Source: Endocalyx cinctus (taxonomy: Eukaryota > Ascomycota > Sordariomycetes > Amphisphaeriales > Apiosporaceae). From it: a stretch of DNA of 64,000 nt. Below the pieces are notes generated by a model. It ran no database searches. It had not been told where the DNA came from and saw only the letters and a program-made list of their open reading frames with translations. The stretch lies in the NCBI GenBank assembly GCA_001600455.1, contig BCKC01000004.1, forward strand, positions 744,001 through 808,000, written 5' to 3'. Below are positions 285 through 63,956 of the stretch, piece by piece. Made by a program: the position numbers and the translations under genes. How positions within the stretch are numbered: the first letter of the stretch is position 1; each line of letters opens with the position of its first letter.

Positions 285-3200
285 GGTTGCGAGAGACCTC
301 CTCTCAGACACTTTGCGCGCAAAGAAGCATGGCCCAAGACGGCGAGCTGAGCTTAACGGCCGTTGAAGATGGCTGATACGCTGTGTGGCTCCATGGATAG
401 GAAACGGCTTTGGCAACCTGGACAAGCTCCTAAGAGACATTGTAGGTCTCGTGCGGATTTAGGAGCGACTATTGAGCGTAAGGGCATGCGTCCCCTCACA
501 ATCATCACATGTAAGACTATCTCGCTTTATATGTGGCGGGCCCGACTTGAACATTACATTAGCATGATCCCTACATTTACCAGTCGTGGGAGCGCGATAG
601 GTATCTATCCCTAGTCTTGATAGCAGTCCCCATGATTTCAGGGACTACATATACGTCGGTATCTCATGTTTTACGAACTAATCTTATTCGTACGCTAGAT
701 CTGACTAAAGTCCCCAGATTCCAATTTAATATGTAGGCAAAACAGTCAAGAGAAGGGTTATACTATCCTTTACCAACTGATATAATGTATGACCAATAAC
801 ATTTACCATGGACGAGACCTGTGGGATATGACCGCGTAATGAAGCTATGAACCTATTAGAATCATTTTAAACCACTCCGCTATTCTCACAGTTTTGGGCG
901 TACGGTGTGAAGGCCTCGTGGTTACAGGGGTAGTCCTAGATAACTAGTTATCACGCAACCCCTGTCGTGTAAATTTTCAGAAATCATAGGACTTTCCACC
1001 ATTTGAATCTCAGATACCGGCACTTGCAATGCGTGTACATACACCACACTACATACATACATATAATATGGATATGTGTAACTACACGGGGGCTAAAGGG
1101 TCTTTGAGTCCCGTATATGTAGTCTTTCAAGAGTACCCTGTGGTTGACTCTACCACGATAGGGACACAGATAGTCTAGGTACTCGGAGATTGTCCCACGA
1201 ACACTTCATCATCTCCACTACTTGTAGTTTTCGCAACTTTGAAAAAAACTCGCAACCGACTACGGTTACGGGCTTAAGTTGCCGAAAAACCCAGACGCTA
1301 TTTATATTTTAGTGTATATATTTTACTCCGTGACAAGTACTTTGTATTTATCTTTCACGCGTTCGATTTTGCATTAACTTGTCAGCCCAAACGTAGTATC
1401 AAACGGATCGTTACCGCCAAGTAGAACACAACTTAGCCTCTTTCGTCTACTATACACGCATACCAGCTGTTCAATCATTGAGTACACTATGTAAATTATA
1501 TGAAAAGGGAAGATATGTAGAAGGCTAAATTCCCAGATCTCAAGTATAGTGAGACCGGTACGACGTTACACCCGCTCAAAATTTCAGCTTTCAACGCATT
1601 AAAATTACCTATTTGAACCGCAAAAACCGACTCTCCGCGGCATTTATCCACCTGTTGTAAGCACTAATCAAATGAGTAGAAGTCTCTCCGCTTTTGCAAC
1701 TCTCACAGGCTACCTACACTCACATCCTCAGCGGCGTCGCCTACATGTACATGCCTTGGACCTCCACATTCGAGCGGTGACAATCAACGATACATTCCAC
1801 CCCGCTTCTTCTTCGCTAGCCCATATACTCTCATAAAAGTCTAAAAGAGACATTCATCTTTATTTCCAAGCCGGAATGTTGGACGATATTTTCGCGTGAC
1901 GGTTATTCGCGACAGCTTATGTAAATTGTGCCTCCGATGCGCTTTCGCTAGTCCGAAAAATAGCGTATCTAGGCAACCGGAGTTGACGAGGCTTTTGATA
2001 TGCTCTTAGATCAGACAAGTATTATTTTTCTTCTGGAGTGGTGCTGGGTACATCGTGATGTTCCTATTTCAAGTTTACAGAACTATTTTCGGATTTTACG
2101 TTTTGGTATGTTATGTTCGACTCCGACTTGACGGCATTCCCATCTTAGTCCAAGCGCGACGGAAACCTATTCTCATCATTTGGAGACTCGGGTACGTTGG
2201 TATAAGCTGCGCACACGTCATGTGCATAGCCTGCTGATGTCGCCCTCGCAGAATAGAGGACCTAGCGTTACCTCCCGTTCTCGTCTCTGATCAACTCTTC
2301 CATTCACGGATCATCAAATTAGTTCATTCTGGTCTCGGCGCCCCCAGGCCGAAATTGATCTGAAATGCATTTAGGAACACCTCATTATTCTATGGCAGGA
2401 TACGCCAGCTAATAGTTGTATTAAAAAGTTTCTCCAGCTAATGTCGGATATGAAATTTATGTTTTCATCCATATTCAAATCAGCTGATTTTAGTTATTTT
2501 ATGAATTGAGTAGTTATTTGTCTTTTGTCAACATATAGTAAAAGAGCAACTACATCACTCTGTGCTTAAGTTAATTCAGGGGCTAATAGAGCGAAAGCCT
2601 CAGAGGTGGCTAGGTGTGGAGTACTCACCATGGCGGACGGAAAAGGGGTTATGTTCGCATGCTCTTTTCATTCCAATAGAACTGTCCATACGTATGACAG
2701 ACAACGAAGGTAGATTTGTAGACTTGTAAGTAGTAAGCACTAAATATAACGAGACATGTGTATCACAGGCGCTATTAGGCAAAAGATAGGTATGCAATTG
2801 CGTGGTGGTGTCGTATAAATTTTCATGCTTGCCGGTAATATTACATCAATACTATCCCCTCCGTAACACGCTTCCAAGCGAAGGCAGGCTCTGTCATCTG
2901 CATGACATGCCGAGCTGAAGACTAAAAACACACACTCAATAGTCAATAATTCCACGTTTTCACTCTATTATTTTGCTTTCGTATAAATACCCCGAACCTT
3001 ATCGTCCATATCTCTCATACGAATGTTGACAATGGAATATGTGCAGAGTGGATATCTTCTCTTCTCCGATTGAGTTTTGCTATTGGCTCTATGTTTGGCC
3101 ACGCTTATAGCGCATGTGGTGGCAGGATGTCCTTGACCGTCCATTCTGTGTAAGCGGCGCCCGAGATAGCATCATCGCATCTGCTACTATAACCCGACTT

Positions 3201-55119: not shown

Positions 55120-56883
55120 TTACGCAATCTCAGCATGCGCCGTGTTAGTCTTGGGTACGGTAGGCTCCGTCCCGGCGTCCTGCCGCATAGCTGCCATCTT
55201 CTCGGGTGGAGGAGGGGTCCAATTGGACGAGGTCCTGGGATTCACGTGCTCTATATACATGGTGTCGATCTCCTCCAGCGTGCGCCCTTGTCCCTCAACG
55301 ACGAAGTAATAGACCAGAAGGCCAGCCACTAGGTTGGTCCCGGCGAATACGTATCCATAACGGAAGTCGATCGCCGAAGTAATAAACGGAGAAAAGAACG
55401 CGATCAAAAAGTTCCAGGTCCAATTGCTAGCTGTCGCCAATGCCATCGCTCGTGCTCGATATCTCGACGGGTAAATTTCAGCGATTAATGTCCAAATTAC
55501 AGGTCCCCAAGTTGCTCCGTAGCCGAGAACGAAGAGAGCAGCGAAGATAATCAAAACTATGCCTGCTGTGGGTGTGTTAGATGGTGTTTCGAGATCTAGA
55601 AGGAAGTGGCCGACGGAGGCAAATATTAGGAAGCAGATGAACATCCAGATGCTCCCAGTAATCAGGGACTTGCGTCGACCGTAGTGTTCAACTATGTATA
55701 GTCCAATAAATGTTACCCCAAAGTTGATACCATTGAGTATGATCTGTGTTATGAACGACTCGATATTTACGGACTTGAAGATAGTTGTTCCGTAATAGAA
55801 GAAGTAATTAGCACCCGTTAGTTGTTGGAATGCCTGTAGTAACACGCCAAGAACTATGCGGTAGGTCATGCGTGGGGCCTTGAACATGGAGATCGCGTCG
55901 GCGATAACCCCTTGCGGGACTTGTGCTTCGGCCCGTAGTTTGCTTCCTATCTCTTCCATCTGAGCGTGAATAGCGTAGTGGTTTGCCGGTGCACCATAGA
56001 CTTTCATCAAAGTCTTCCTTGCCTCATCCACGCGTCCTCTCCGGTAGTCAAATCGAGGTGTTTCGGAAAAGGCAAGGATACCAAGACCTAAAATCAAAGT
56101 CCAAAGCCAGCCTAGGCCAATCACAATGCGCCATGATGCGGAATTGTTCTTTTGGTGTGAATATGTGCCATAGTTGAAAGTAGCGGCAAGGAAGATACCA
56201 AGAGTAATAAATAGTTGATAAGTGCAGACCAACGCACCACGAATCCACGGAGGCGCCGTCTCGGCTTGATACATAGGAACGAGGAGACTGAGCGCGCCAA
56301 CGCCCCAACCGGCGACAAGGCGACCTATCATGATTTGCTCCCACGCGTCCACAGATGCGATCTGAATAACAAACCCGATCGCGACGACGATGCACCATAT
56401 GCAGATAGACCAGCGTCGACCTATCCTATCGGCTACGGGAGCAGCGGCCAAGGCACCAATGAGAGTGCCTATCGAAAGAAGGCCTACGATGAGTCCTTGC
56501 CTGACGTTACTAAACGAGTAAGATCCGTCCGACTGAAGTTCTCCAAATCGCCGAAGAAAATCGGGCATTTCGAGAAATCCGGAAATTTGACCAGTATCGT
56601 ATCTGCGAGTCTATTAGTAAGATTCAGAGCGGAAAATGACTGTTACGGGTTGACTGTTACGAGTTCACAGAGACTCTTACCCGAAAATTAAGCCTCCCAT
56701 TGAGACTAGGAAAGCCATCATAAGCGAGGTGCGCGTAATTCGCGGTAGTGGCGAGTAGTCAAAGGATTCATCATGCTCGGATGAATTTTCCTTGTGTTCG
56801 TCGAAGTATATGTGCGTAGTTAGTCCCAGCATGGTTGGATCGGTTGGGTTGGTGTTGGATTGAGACAAAATCTGAGCTAGCAA
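55120..56883 (-). CDS. MFS sugar transporter (sugar porter family), two exons
   Basis: Exons 56883-56681 and 56602-55120 join in phase 2 to 561 residues. The splice rebuilds GGLIFGYDTGQISGF, the conserved end of helix 1 in sugar porters, which neither frame holds alone. Other family motifs: DRIGRRWS between helices 2 and 3, a degenerate PESPR (SETPRF) after helix 6, and QLTGANYFFYYGTTIF in helix 7. Twelve hydrophobic segments are visible. It resembles fungal hexose transporters that import glucose or related sugars by proton symport at the plasma membrane. A 50-residue hydrophilic N-terminus and a 40-residue C-terminal tail are cytosolic. It shares its strand with the large isocyanide-synthase gene, 1.4 kb away; a role in exporting its product is possible but the motifs favour sugar uptake. 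Confidence 0.92.
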
Positions 56884-58274: not shown

Positions 58275-61200
58275 TCAGCAACTTCGCACTATCTCTGCAT
58301 ACCTCATAAACTCCTCATCCCTCAACAGCACATCCAATTCCTCCGGATGCGTCCCCACTGAGAACTGGACGCTGCCGTCCCTGCCCAAGGGGAATATGTA
58401 CAACACCCTTATACCGCGGTTCATGCGATCGAGTTGCGGTCGCATAGATTCGGGAGATCCCTTTTCGGTCGCGAAGAACTTGTCTCCGAACCGGATCTCG
58501 TCGTGCGGGTATAACATCATGTTAGCCATCATGGCGTTCATATGGTGGTCGAGTCCGACGAAGGACTTGACAATCTTGCGGTGATCGGGCACCGATTTCA
58601 GGATTGTGAAAGCGTCGTGCACGAGTGAAGGCGTGATGTACCCTCGGTATTGACGCATTAGGTTGGCGACGTGTCCAAGGCTCGTTGAGCTCGAGCATAG
58701 CTCTTCGACGGACATGGTGGGTCGATTCGTGAGCATGATCGTGCCGATATAATTCTCGGGAAGCTGCGTGGAGAAGTAAGGGCGGCCGTCGATGGTTAGT
58801 TCGAGGATAGTCTTATCGTCCGGTCCGAAGGTTACGTTGTGGACTTCCTTGGCTGCCTGGTAACGGGCTTTCAGAGCAGATCGCCATACGAATGCCTGCA
58901 CGATATCGTTCTCCGATAGCTTGACCCCTTGGACTTCGGCGTCTGTCGTGATATCTGCCTTCAATTTTTCTAACATTTCAGGCTGAATCTTAAACATGTT
59001 CGTCGTCAAGGATCTATCATCCCGTGGGGGTACCCAGGCAGAAGAGAATTTGGGTTGAGGCGGGAGAGTCCATTGTTTTGAAACTTCTGGGGAGACAGCA
59101 AGAGAAGCCGCCTCGACCTCGGATGGTGGGTTGAATGGTATGAATCCCCACGTACCAGGGTCGACCTCTTCAGCCGTTCGTTGAGCAGCCCAGCCTTCTT
59201 GCTCGTGAATGATGTCCAATAAGTCATGGTTGAAACTCATCTCCGGATCGTACCAGTCGCACGTAGCCTCCTTGTCTCCTTGGAGGTACCGACAGTTCTC
59301 AGCCCAGGCCTTGACGATGGTCATGGCACCTATACCATCAATGCAAGCATGGTTGATCTCGACGGCAAGAATGCATCCCCCCTTGACAAAGTTGGCCTGC
59401 GCATTGAGCATGTCCGCTGGTAGTTGAGGGATGAGGTCGTCTCGCATGAGAAGACTATCCTTAACGGAATTGGGGTGGAATTCGGCGTTACGCAGTTGTT
59501 CAAATGACGGCAACACGTCTGATAGATCCTTGTAGACGAGACGATTGTGCACAGAGGCGGCCATGGATAGCGGAGGGATGGTTATGCACAGGTCTCCTTG
59601 AGAGTATCCGATTTCCGCTTCCGGACGTGGGATCACCTTGCCACTTAGGGCAGGGATCATGTCAAATGTACGGTTGAGACCGTCGCTCAAATTGGCAAAC
59701 ACGTCCTGAAAGGAGACACCCTCGTGGATTGGCAAGTATGCGGTCAGACACATGGCACTGTGCGAGCAGGTATAGTCAAACGCATTTAATTTGAACGTTT
59801 GTCGTGCTCTGTGCTGGGCCATCATATCCCTCATCTTAGACGAGGCATCATTCACCTTCTTGGTGGGTGAGGACTGTGAGATTTTCGACTCCTCTACCAG
59901 TTGTGCAATCACGTCAGAGAGTTTGGCTACGGTGGAGTTAGCGTAAACGTGTCGAACAGCGATCTGGTCGCCCAGCCCCGTGCCGGCTCGAATCTTCTTA
60001 ACCGCCGAGACAACACCTAGGGAGTCTAGCCCAAGGTCGAAGAGATTCGCGTCCAGGGGAATATCATCCCCCTGGGATTCGTGTAGCAAGGGGCGAAGGA
60101 TCTCGCAAACACCATCCTGTATCGATTTAATTGAGATGGTGCCAAGGAGGTTTACGGTGGAGAAAACGTCATTTATTCGAGAGTTGTAGAATCTCTCAAT
60201 ATAATCGGTGTAGAGCGCTAGGGTGGCTGGTCTCTTTACCGTACCCTTGTCTGTGCGGAAGAAAGGCTTGTCGGGTGATGCGAAAGTGACATATTCTCTC
60301 AAAAGCTGGTTCTTGTGTCGAGACATCGAGTTAGCTTTCTTGACGATCTCCCAAATACTCTCAATCATCTCGTCCGATTTATTGGTCGGATCCTTCAACT
60401 CGATCAGCAGACCAGCTTGGGGCTTTCCAGTTCCGAAAACTAAGCATCCCTTAATGGCCGGATGAGTAGTCACATAAGCTTCAGTTTCCAGAGGCGAGAT
60501 CTTATATCCGTTGGAAAGGACGACAAGATCATCACTTCGTCCCTTGAAAGCCCATAAGTTAGACTTAGTTGGGTGTCTCATGTACAAATCCTTAAAGTTG
60601 ATAGTTTCTTTTTCCGGGAAAGTGTGAAATATTCCCTGGAAAAGAGGCCAGTGTGGGTTACGATGCACCCAGTGCTCATACGTGTCCTGATCAAGTTGCT
60701 TGAACTCGAAACCGGAGTAAGGGTGGAAGCAGAACCAGAACCAGTCTTCCCTTGCTGGGACTAGATTGCCTATAAATAGACCCTCCGTTGTGCCGGTCAA
60801 ATTCAGCACTCTGATGACTTCGTTGACCTTTCCGGCACTAAGAGGACTGACGGGACCGCCAGACGCGCAGATGAATTTGGATGGCTTAAACTTCTCCAAC
60901 ACATCGGGCGTCTCGCCAAGTTCGTCAACCAGGGAGGGTACCATGCTCCAGATATCGATCTTCGCCTGCTCCGCGAGGGTTTCTATGAGGTTCATGTTAG
61001 GCAGTGTACCGGAGGGCCCCAAAATGCAGTGCAAGTTGAAGAGTGCGGGCATCAGAATATCCATGATGATGCCGGCTCCCTAATGTCATCACAGTTAGCC
61101 AAGAGATGTTTATCTAGCTGGATGCATGTAGTACGTACGTGGCTCATGGGGAAAGATGAATAAATCCTATCTCCTTCTTTCCAGTCAGATGTCCACGGGA

Positions 61201-63450
61201 CTAATCCGTCATCTCCCTCGACAGGAGGCAGCAACCGCACCGCGTCCATGGTACCAATAAGACCATGAGACCAGGGAATGGGTTTAGGTACTCCCGTAGT
61301 TCCGGAAGTGTGTAGATAGCAGAACGGGTCATCAATGGCTTGGTCGAATGTTTTCGTATATGGGAAAGGCACAGTGGACTCGGCATCGAGAAGTTCGTCG
61401 AGTGTAGGCATCTTCAAAACGTTCATGGAACGTTTCTGTAGAACCTCTTTGACTAGAGGTACTGGAGACGCATCACCTGCATTAACCCAGATGTCACACT
61501 TGGTTGCCTCGAGAACTGCTAATGCCCCTTCGGTGTTATTTTTGGGCGACAAGAATAATGCCTGTTGAGAGGAATACGTGTTAGCCTGTTAAGAATATCC
61601 GTAGATGCTTTGCTATAGCACCATAGACGTACCGCATAGCCAACTTTGACACAGGCATATGTTAATAAAATGTGTCTCAGATCATCTAAATATGTCAGTC
61701 ATTTTGATCCCCGACTTCATAAGAGTATCGAACTTACGAGGTCCTATGTAGCCCACGGGCTGAATCGAGCTAGGTTTTCCAACCTTCTCCACAAGCCACC
61801 AAGCAGTCCTATCAACAGCCTTGGTGAATGCACGTGCAGAAATGTCCGAGAAGCTAAGAGAGCCGTCGCTGGAAACCTTAGCAAGCGAGAACACGACGCG
61901 TTCTGGCTCAGTAGCAGCCAAGCTATCCATGATCTGCGGGATAAGCCGCCGACCGTACGGCTCCACCTCGGCCTCTTCCGTCAACGACACAGTGCTGATC
62001 TTGTCCTCAGCCACAAGGTCCGGACTGCTAAGCGTAATACTAGGAGGGCTATCGATTTTTGGGGTCGAAGTGCCGGCGCTCGAGCGAGCCGAAAAGACGG
62101 AGCTCTTACCCGGTGACGAGGGGGGCGAAGAAGATACCGACCCCGCAGAAGATGCCGAGGGTGTAGAAGCCCGGCTAAGGTACTCGCTAGCAGTGAGGGC
62201 TTTGGCGGGAGCGAGGTAGCTTGCCGGTGCTTCGGTGATACCGACGCCGTCGGCGGATGGCTTTTCCTTGAAGTGGCTGGGGACACCATCGACGTATACT
62301 GTCTCTAGCCTATCGTCCTTGCTGAACTCGCCCATGGGCGCGCTAATCCATTCTCCGGTAGCTAATTGGGCAACACTGCAGTGCCACGGAGTGGTGAAGC
62401 CGGTCTTGGTATTGAGGAGAGATATCGAAATCTTGGAACCGCCGCCCATAGATTCGTGGATGGAAAGTCGTAGATGATTAGGGAAGGCGTTCTTGACGGC
62501 GCCGGCAAAAGCCTAATTTAGGAAACGGGAAGTTAGAAATCGAAGAAAACGGGTTAATGCGATTTGTTATTTTCACTCACATATCCTCGTATCAGCATTT
62601 GCTTGGCAAGGTACTTGCAGTCTCTCTTATAGGCGTTGCCACTTCGCTCAGCGCCTTGAGGGAAAATGTGCTTTAAATCCGACTCGAGGAACCTTTTGTA
62701 TCCTAGGTAGGTTAGCTTCGTATCGGGATTGTTGGCGATCTCGTAGTCAATGTCGAGATCTTCTCGACCGTATCTATTCAGAAGCAGGCGGCGGAAGTTC
62801 GTGCAGTTGGCTACGTAGATGATTTCCTTCATCTGGGCCGGTAAAGGGAAGTCGAGCAGATCACGCATTCTAGAGAACCCAATGCAGTTGAACTTCTTTC
62901 GGATGGCCATTTTTCTCAGGGCCTCTCCATACGCCCATGTGTCCTGATCGGATATGCACAATAAGTCTGATATAACAGTTAGTCAAGTGTTTCCCCGGCT
63001 GCGTAATGATAGTATATGGGTGCAAAATGTACCATTGTATGTGATACCATCCGAGATGATGGTAACCCTAGCTCCCGGCTGGTAAACCTTCTGTATGCGC
63101 TTGCACATCGTGTTCAGCCGGTCGAGGGCTAGCTCTTCGGCTTTATCCGGAAGACTTCCTAGAACCTTGTACACCTTGTTCGCGGATTTGAAAGGGAACG
63201 CAGGTAGACAAGCCTCGACCCGCTCCCCAGCCGCGACGAATCGACCGACGACGGGGATAAAGTGCTCGATATCTCGCTCTACCTCTCCTTCCGCGTGGTC
63301 GATTTTGTTTAGTGCATACTCGAAGACAATGTCTAAGATAAGACGAGATGTTTCTCTAACGGTGTCTTCGATCTGGTTAGTATCGGGGGCCGTTCGGTCC
63401 CCCGAGCGAAGGTCACCCATGGGGCGGACACCGGCGTGCGCCAATTCCAT
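58275..63450 (-). CDS. isocyanide synthase / NRPS-like megaenzyme (ICS-A-T-acyltransferase), CrmA-like architecture, six exons
   Basis: Exons 63450-63033, 62966-62581, 62512-61738, 61685-61633, 61561-61139 and 61079-58275 join in frame to 1619 residues. Residues about 25-345 are a DIT1/PvcA isocyanide synthase (GARVTIISDGITYND, CISDQDTWAYGEALRK, FPNHLRLSIHES, TPWHCSVAQL), which makes isonitriles from amino acids with ribulose-5-phosphate. After a Ser/Pro-rich linker, an adenylation domain (about 440-1000) shows A3 YLHTSGTTGVPKP, A5 NLTGTTEG, A7 GRSDDLVVLSNGYK and A10 GTVKRPAT with Lys967. A carrier follows with LFDLGLDSLG (Ser1038). The C-terminal 500 residues are a BAHD-type acyltransferase with His1262 and Asp1266 in NHACIDGIG. 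There is no condensation domain. This order is that of Aspergillus CrmA, which makes a valine-derived isocyanide. Substrate and product here are unknown. Confidence 0.92.
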
Positions 63451-63600
63451 GATGACTATGTCGAGTGGAACATCCTGTGGAGCGGTTAGTTAAGTTATGA
63501 TGTGATGTATACTAGTAAATTAGGTTCACAACTTACCAATGTTGGTACAAGCTATCTAGCAACGTCGCAAGTAACGGCACCCAACAGCTTCCCGCTATAC

Positions 63601-63712
63601 AGAATAACAAAAGAAATAAAGAAAGAAAGAAAAGAAAAGAAAAGAAAAAATATAGGAAAAGGAAAAGGAAATGAAAAAAAAAAAAGGAAAAGAGAAAAGA
63701 GAAAAGAGAAAA
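63601..63712. repeat. polypurine (A/G) tract, AAAGA-type repeats
   Basis: Over 100 bp of almost pure purine with AAAGA and AGAAA units, interrupted by TATA near 63650. On the coding strand of the gene below it is a CT-rich tract, common near fungal transcription starts. Confidence 0.75.
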
Positions 63713-63956
63713 CTGGTCAGTTCGAAGGTAGTTTACACATAACTACTTAGTTAAAGGTAAAACGGGTGTAGAGTAAGGCTAGGTTGATTCACGCCAGCTT
63801 TATAGAAGCTGTGATGAAGATTGCGTTGAAGATTGATAGTATATCTTGAAGATATTCTATTTCTGAAACCTAGTCCTCAGCGCATACTTGACAAATCGAG
63901 TTGCTTGGCGTAGTATAGATATCCTGTCAGAGTCAGAAACAATTTTCGAGTTGATA

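Follow-up and report, generated by a model that had tools for sequence, protein, structure and literature searches.

A CrmA orthologue of Endocalyx cinctus that seems to stand alone, and a predicted route to its isocyanide ester

Introduction

Isocyanides can act as ligands of copper and other metals, and one of them, valine isocyanide, inhibits bacteria. Bacterial PvcA makes a different isocyanide. CrmA, a fungal enzyme described in PMC5974471 and PMC9381783, makes an isocyanide from valine in Aspergillus and other fungi, and the crm group is given as widespread in Ascomycota (PMC10153163). In distant species crmB, crmC and crmD are poorly conserved beside crmA, according to PMC9381783. The enzyme joining the isocyanide to mannitol was left open by Won et al., who write of an 'as-yet-unknown acyl transferase'. 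As to regulation, the Mac1 consensus core of Fusarium oxysporum is stated to be TGCTCA, with up to three sites in all but one of the crm cluster promoters (PMC11563359), and the MacA binding sequence of A. fumigatus is given as TGTGCTCA (PMC6514546). Here we analyse a gene of Endocalyx cinctus that is almost certainly a crmA orthologue. It lies in a stretch of 64,000 nucleotides (the window; contig BCKC01000004.1, here C4, 744001-808000) of a genome of 44.8 Mb in 15 contigs.

Results

The crmA gene is intact and was correctly read by an earlier note made from the letters of the window alone, which had proposed six exons encoding one enzyme of 1619 residues. The gene model is as follows.

58275..63450, minus strand: coding region of the crmA orthologue, 6 exons, 1619 aa (gene model)
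63033..63450, minus strand: exon 1, with the ATG at 63450 (gene model)
62581..62966, minus strand: exon 2 (gene model)
61738..62512, minus strand: exon 3 (gene model)
61633..61685, minus strand: exon 4 (gene model)
61139..61561, minus strand: exon 5 (gene model)
58275..61079, minus strand: exon 6, stop included (gene model)
63475..63536, minus strand: candidate 5'-leader intron (GTAAGT..CACAG), 62 nt (read from the sequence)

All five introns of the coding region (66, 68, 52, 71 and 59 nt) have GT..AG borders and the reading frame has no stop. Upstream of the ATG at 63450 the frame reaches a stop before another ATG, whether or not the leader intron is spliced. Just upstream of the leader, a long purine-rich (A/G) tract occupies 63600-63715 of the plus strand.

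A protein search gave 126 matches at E <= 0.001 among 7,989 candidates scored, the best 120 of which are listed. Rows P0001-P0098 were taken as CrmA-type (45-68% identity); P0014 and P0097 were already labelled crmA at source. The motif, pocket and tree sets hold 88 relatives, ten of the 98 rows being left out as shorter than 1500 aa, and the alignment of the carrier (T) and BAHD parts holds the window's T-BAHD part with 77 of the 98. Residues flanking all five junctions align unshifted with six relatives, except for a 6-residue gap in P0014 at junction 1. The six-exon reading is thus borne out by the intron borders, the open frame and the junctions. Junctions 1, 3 and 4 carry 18, 8 and 4 additional columns in the 89-row alignment, opened by other rows and perhaps due to introns retained in the gene models of these.

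The 89-row tree, rooted at the midpoint, joins the window protein with 12 Xylariales rows (Xylaria, Nemania, Astrocystis and other Xylariaceae) at an SH-aLRT of 100, a placing that points to a fungus in or close to the Xylariales. In this nearest clade of 13 rows, in which X. grammica reaches 68% identity, the end branch of the window protein (0.4) is longer than those of the other rows, save P0067 (0.55). A 49-row tree of the isocyanide synthase (ICS) domain likewise places it in the CrmA group. CrmA of A. fumigatus (P0021; AFUA_3G13690/13700) shares its domain order and its ICS, adenylation (A), T and BAHD motifs, with 66% identity over 98% of the query. Domain order, this identity and the place in the tree all uphold the CrmA type that had been proposed.

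A Pfam search of the 1619-residue product found, in this order and each above its cut-off, DIT1_PvcA (residues 68-337, E 2e-100), AMP-binding (490-817), AMP-binding_C_3 (868-985), PP-binding (1009-1076), TRI-like_N (1135-1281) and Transferase (1242-1483). The predicted domains are the following.

62306..63249, minus strand: ICS domain, residues 68-337, split by introns 1 and 2 (Pfam DIT1_PvcA; PvcA structure 3e59, E 3e-36)
60180..61849, minus strand: A domain, residues 490-985, split by introns 3, 4 and 5 (Pfam AMP-binding, AMP-binding_C_3)
59907..60110, minus strand: T domain, residues 1009-1076, attachment Ser1038 with codon 60021-60023 (Pfam PP-binding)
58284..59810, minus strand: BAHD acyltransferase domain, residues 1109-1617, His1262 with codon 59349-59351 and Asp1266 with codon 59337-59339

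The order ICS-A-T-acyltransferase given in the earlier note is therefore confirmed, every named domain having been found. Its statement that no condensation domain is present also stands: the closest match of the C-terminal part was not a nonribosomal peptide synthetase (NRPS) condensation domain, but a BAHD fold of TRI101 type, closest to the acetyltransferase TRI101 itself. PvcA (structure 3e59) resembles the ICS domain in sequence and is a single domain, unlike the four parts here. Lys88, Asp134, His312, Ser1038, His1262 and Asp1266 are all present and are kept in 86 to 88 of the 88 relatives; at Ser1038, 87 have Ser and one has a gap, and the HxxxD motif of the BAHD domain is kept in 88/88.

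The A-domain pocket is identical to that of a proven producer, the same as that of A. fumigatus CrmA except for one residue, and nearly invariant across the 88 relatives; only this pocket match points to a valine-derived isocyanide as the predicted product. A domains that activate amino acids carry Asp235, which grips the alpha-amino group. In a profile alignment with EntE, position 235 falls on Gly686 (Gly in 87 of the 88 relatives, a gap in the other), and the A domain most likely has Gly where amino-acid-activating domains have Asp235. Position 517 is Lys963 by an EntF alignment, and this Lys is kept in 88/88. Since the Asp that grips the alpha-amino group seems to be lost, the A domain would take an isocyano acid and not an amino acid, which suggests that it loads the finished isocyano acid.

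The reading that we prefer, with a probability of about 0.55, is that in this CrmA orthologue the ICS domain would make an isocyano acid, the A and T domains would load it, and the BAHD domain would esterify a polyol with it. In the first step, for which published CrmA work is the basis, the ICS domain would act on a free amino acid, which is most likely to be valine, and turn it into 2-isocyanoisovalerate. The A domain would then adenylate not an amino acid but the 2-isocyanoisovalerate so formed or the N-formyl hydrate of that acid, and the acyl group would pass to the phosphopantetheine on Ser1038. Finally the BAHD domain, with His1262 as the base, would move the acyl group onto one of the hydroxyls of a polyol, for instance D-mannitol, to form an ester like fumicicolin or brassicicolin. 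Because of its TRI101-type fold and the HxxxD kept throughout the relatives, the last domain of CrmA may itself form the ester.

Several observations weigh against this reading. A MAFFT alignment opens a gap at position 235, where the Asp of EntF pairs with Pro682 (Pro in 87/88) and the Asn of EntE with residue 692 (Asp in 67/88, Asn in 21/88). The profile alignment with EntF (hhalign) misses the region of position 235, giving no global alignment and, locally, a short C-terminal stretch only. With two alignments in disagreement the location of position 235 in CrmA is not secure, and loss of Asp235 would show what the A domain would not bind, not what it binds. TRI101 takes its acyl group from acyl-CoA, and the BAHD domain may therefore bypass the carrier. 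In addition, F. oxysporum has a separate transferase-family gene adjoining crmA, as reported in PMC11563359, and mutants of Alternaria brassicicola in both known mannitol routes are described as still making brassicicolin A, with traces of mannitol remaining (PMC3652318). Residue 692 (codon 61059-61061) lies seven residues after the A4 His.

In an alternative order, the A domain would activate valine itself, the ICS domain act on the carrier-bound amino acid and the BAHD domain then release the product. The presence of A, T and ICS on one chain and the kept carrier Ser agree with such an order, and by the MAFFT pairing the acidic or amide residue 692 could replace Asp235. We consider it unlikely, given the Gly at position 235 in the EntE alignment, the CrmA-like ICS domains fused to ABC transporters with no A or T domain listed (see below), and the report in PMC9381783 of valine isocyanide and N-formylvaline as metabolites. 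It is similarly doubtful that the ICS half releases its isocyano acid in free form and that a different acyl group, such as acetyl or 2-hydroxyisovaleryl, is what the A-T-BAHD half places on the polyol. Heterocicolins are reported to bear one or both of these groups (PMC9381783) and the BAHD fold is nearest to an acetyltransferase, but the pocket hardly varies over the relatives.

ICS domains joined to ABC transporter domains, with no A, T or BAHD listed, occur in 19 of the 120 listed rows (P0100-P0116, P0118, P0119). An N-terminal ICS domain, 55-69% identical to that of the window protein, is present in all 20 rows P0100-P0119, and in the seven of these rows that were read it is followed by a stretch resembling the beginning of a PDR transporter. 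The ICS tree groups the ICS-ABC rows with the ICS of CrmA at 100/100; it needs three changes for the ABC label and so does not show that the fusion arose only once. One row of this tree, that of the ICS gene on contig C8, is a faulty product of crude exon joining, and its placement was disregarded. Two surveys (PMC10153163, PMC5974471) name three ICS architectures, and ICS-ABC is not among them, 'ABC' being absent from their main text; no title on the subject appeared among the papers listed in further literature searches (10 of 939 and 10 of 2,223). Possibly these rows are merged models of neighbouring genes, yet rows of this kind come up in many different genera.

The genome was judged to hold no second CrmA, as the two other ICS genes (C5:3216k and C8:1041k) show no A-T-BAHD part. 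Among first-look candidates, the other genome matches of an A-T-BAHD query lie away from both. A TauD match stands beside the C5 gene; none stands beside the C8 gene among the 36 listed. Within C5:3192486-3217009 there is also a match to AATase, the crmB family, some 23 kb from the ICS gene. At C1:3708117-3712997 an NRPS-like frame matching the A-T part of CrmA lies beside a convergent frame with a weak BAHD match (E 4.5e-4), perhaps, by these matches, an unfused counterpart of CrmA.

The close neighbour of crmA inside the window is a sugar porter of the SP family (Pfam Sugar_tr, E 9.5e-124; TIGR00879 above cut-off), 1.4 kb downstream.

55120..56832, minus strand, as crmA: sugar porter gene, 2 exons (56681-56832, 55120-56602; exon 1 and the intron read by eye)

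Four transporter-fused CrmA rows (P0019, P0052, P0059, P0078) have the same first four parts as the window protein, P0078 without PP-binding in the Pfam set, and end in an MFS domain which, in our judgement, resembles CrmC as described. The sugar porter is instead a separate gene without significant match to that domain (best blastp E 0.03), and it was rejected as the missing CrmC or MFS part.

The earlier note had placed the rest of any cluster beyond 64000. A crm cluster on that side was rejected, as no crmB, crmC or crmD homologue was found near crmA, C4:804001-844000 included (open reading frames listed without 834001-844000). No crmC-like sequence at E <= 1e-3 was present in the window and the loci fetched from C4:804001-844000. 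Genome-wide searches, which score the best candidates only, gave seven AATase (crmB family) matches, none on C4, and seven Ctr matches in five genes, the sole one on C4 lying 3.36 Mb from crmA. The crmA gene here thus seems, from these searches, to stand alone without its usual crm partners. Of the MFS matches in the genome, the one that scores best as crmC-like is at C13:125449 (54% identity over 126 residues), far from crmA; its locus of 3,378 bases has three TGCTCA, each of them upstream of the match and one near the likely start codon. Rightward of crmA follow a CorA-like frame, a squalene-hopene cyclase and a P450. The cyclase (Pfam SQHop_cyclase_N and SQHop_cyclase_C, with a DVDDT motif) and the P450 after it share a strand at C4:814003-818583, about 6.5 kb past the crmA start, and form a candidate triterpene pair.

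Upstream of crmA, 2,374 bases hold no TGCTCA, and none lies between 54,824 and 58,730, a span that takes in the stretch from the crmA stop to the porter and with it the porter's upstream side; four sites lie within the crmA gene itself. The background is 30 sites in 70,000 bases. As about one site would be expected upstream by chance, the missing core is weak evidence (the probability of zero is roughly 0.36). Of the five Ctr genes of the genome, three carry TGCTCA in the 1.5 kb before their Pfam match, with 5, 4 and 2 sites and in one case a tandem triplet, and two carry none there. Upstream of the Ctr gene at C1:3937065, three tandem TTTGCTCA sites (locus 3096-3117) make a candidate Mac1 control region.

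The intact crmA may work outside the copper response here, with a product shaped by the local setting, the sugar porter for instance. The lack of sites upstream of crmA and toward the porter, set against the three Ctr genes that have them, and of crmB, crmC and crmD homologues nearby fits this explanation, which we regard as possible, with the odds against it. Absence by chance is far from rare, two Ctr genes also lack upstream sites, and Mac1 may bind other sites. The partner genes are, moreover, seldom conserved by crmA in distant species anyway, as stated in PMC9381783.

Discussion

As an enzyme, the protein described here is, by its sequence, an ordinary family member: CrmA has already been described and the crm group occurs widely across Ascomycota, so the gene adds a member to a known kind. 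Unlike the A. fumigatus form, it has no crmB, crmC or crmD found beside it and no Mac1 core site upstream. A bolder proposal, which we hold tentatively and at well below even odds, is that CrmA is a self-contained ester line, in which the A domain would load the finished isocyano acid and the protein's own BAHD domain would be the missing mannitol transferase, and that in E. cinctus the lone gene, off the crm cluster and possibly off Mac1, would suffice.

Since crmB, crmC and crmD were not found beside it, the lone gene offers a convenient natural case. A pocket without a clear Asp235 across the family, together with the fully kept HxxxD, gives a specific test of self-esterification by CrmA. 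The interest of the locus is thus a testable mechanism for the whole CrmA family and a lone, possibly copper-independent setting.
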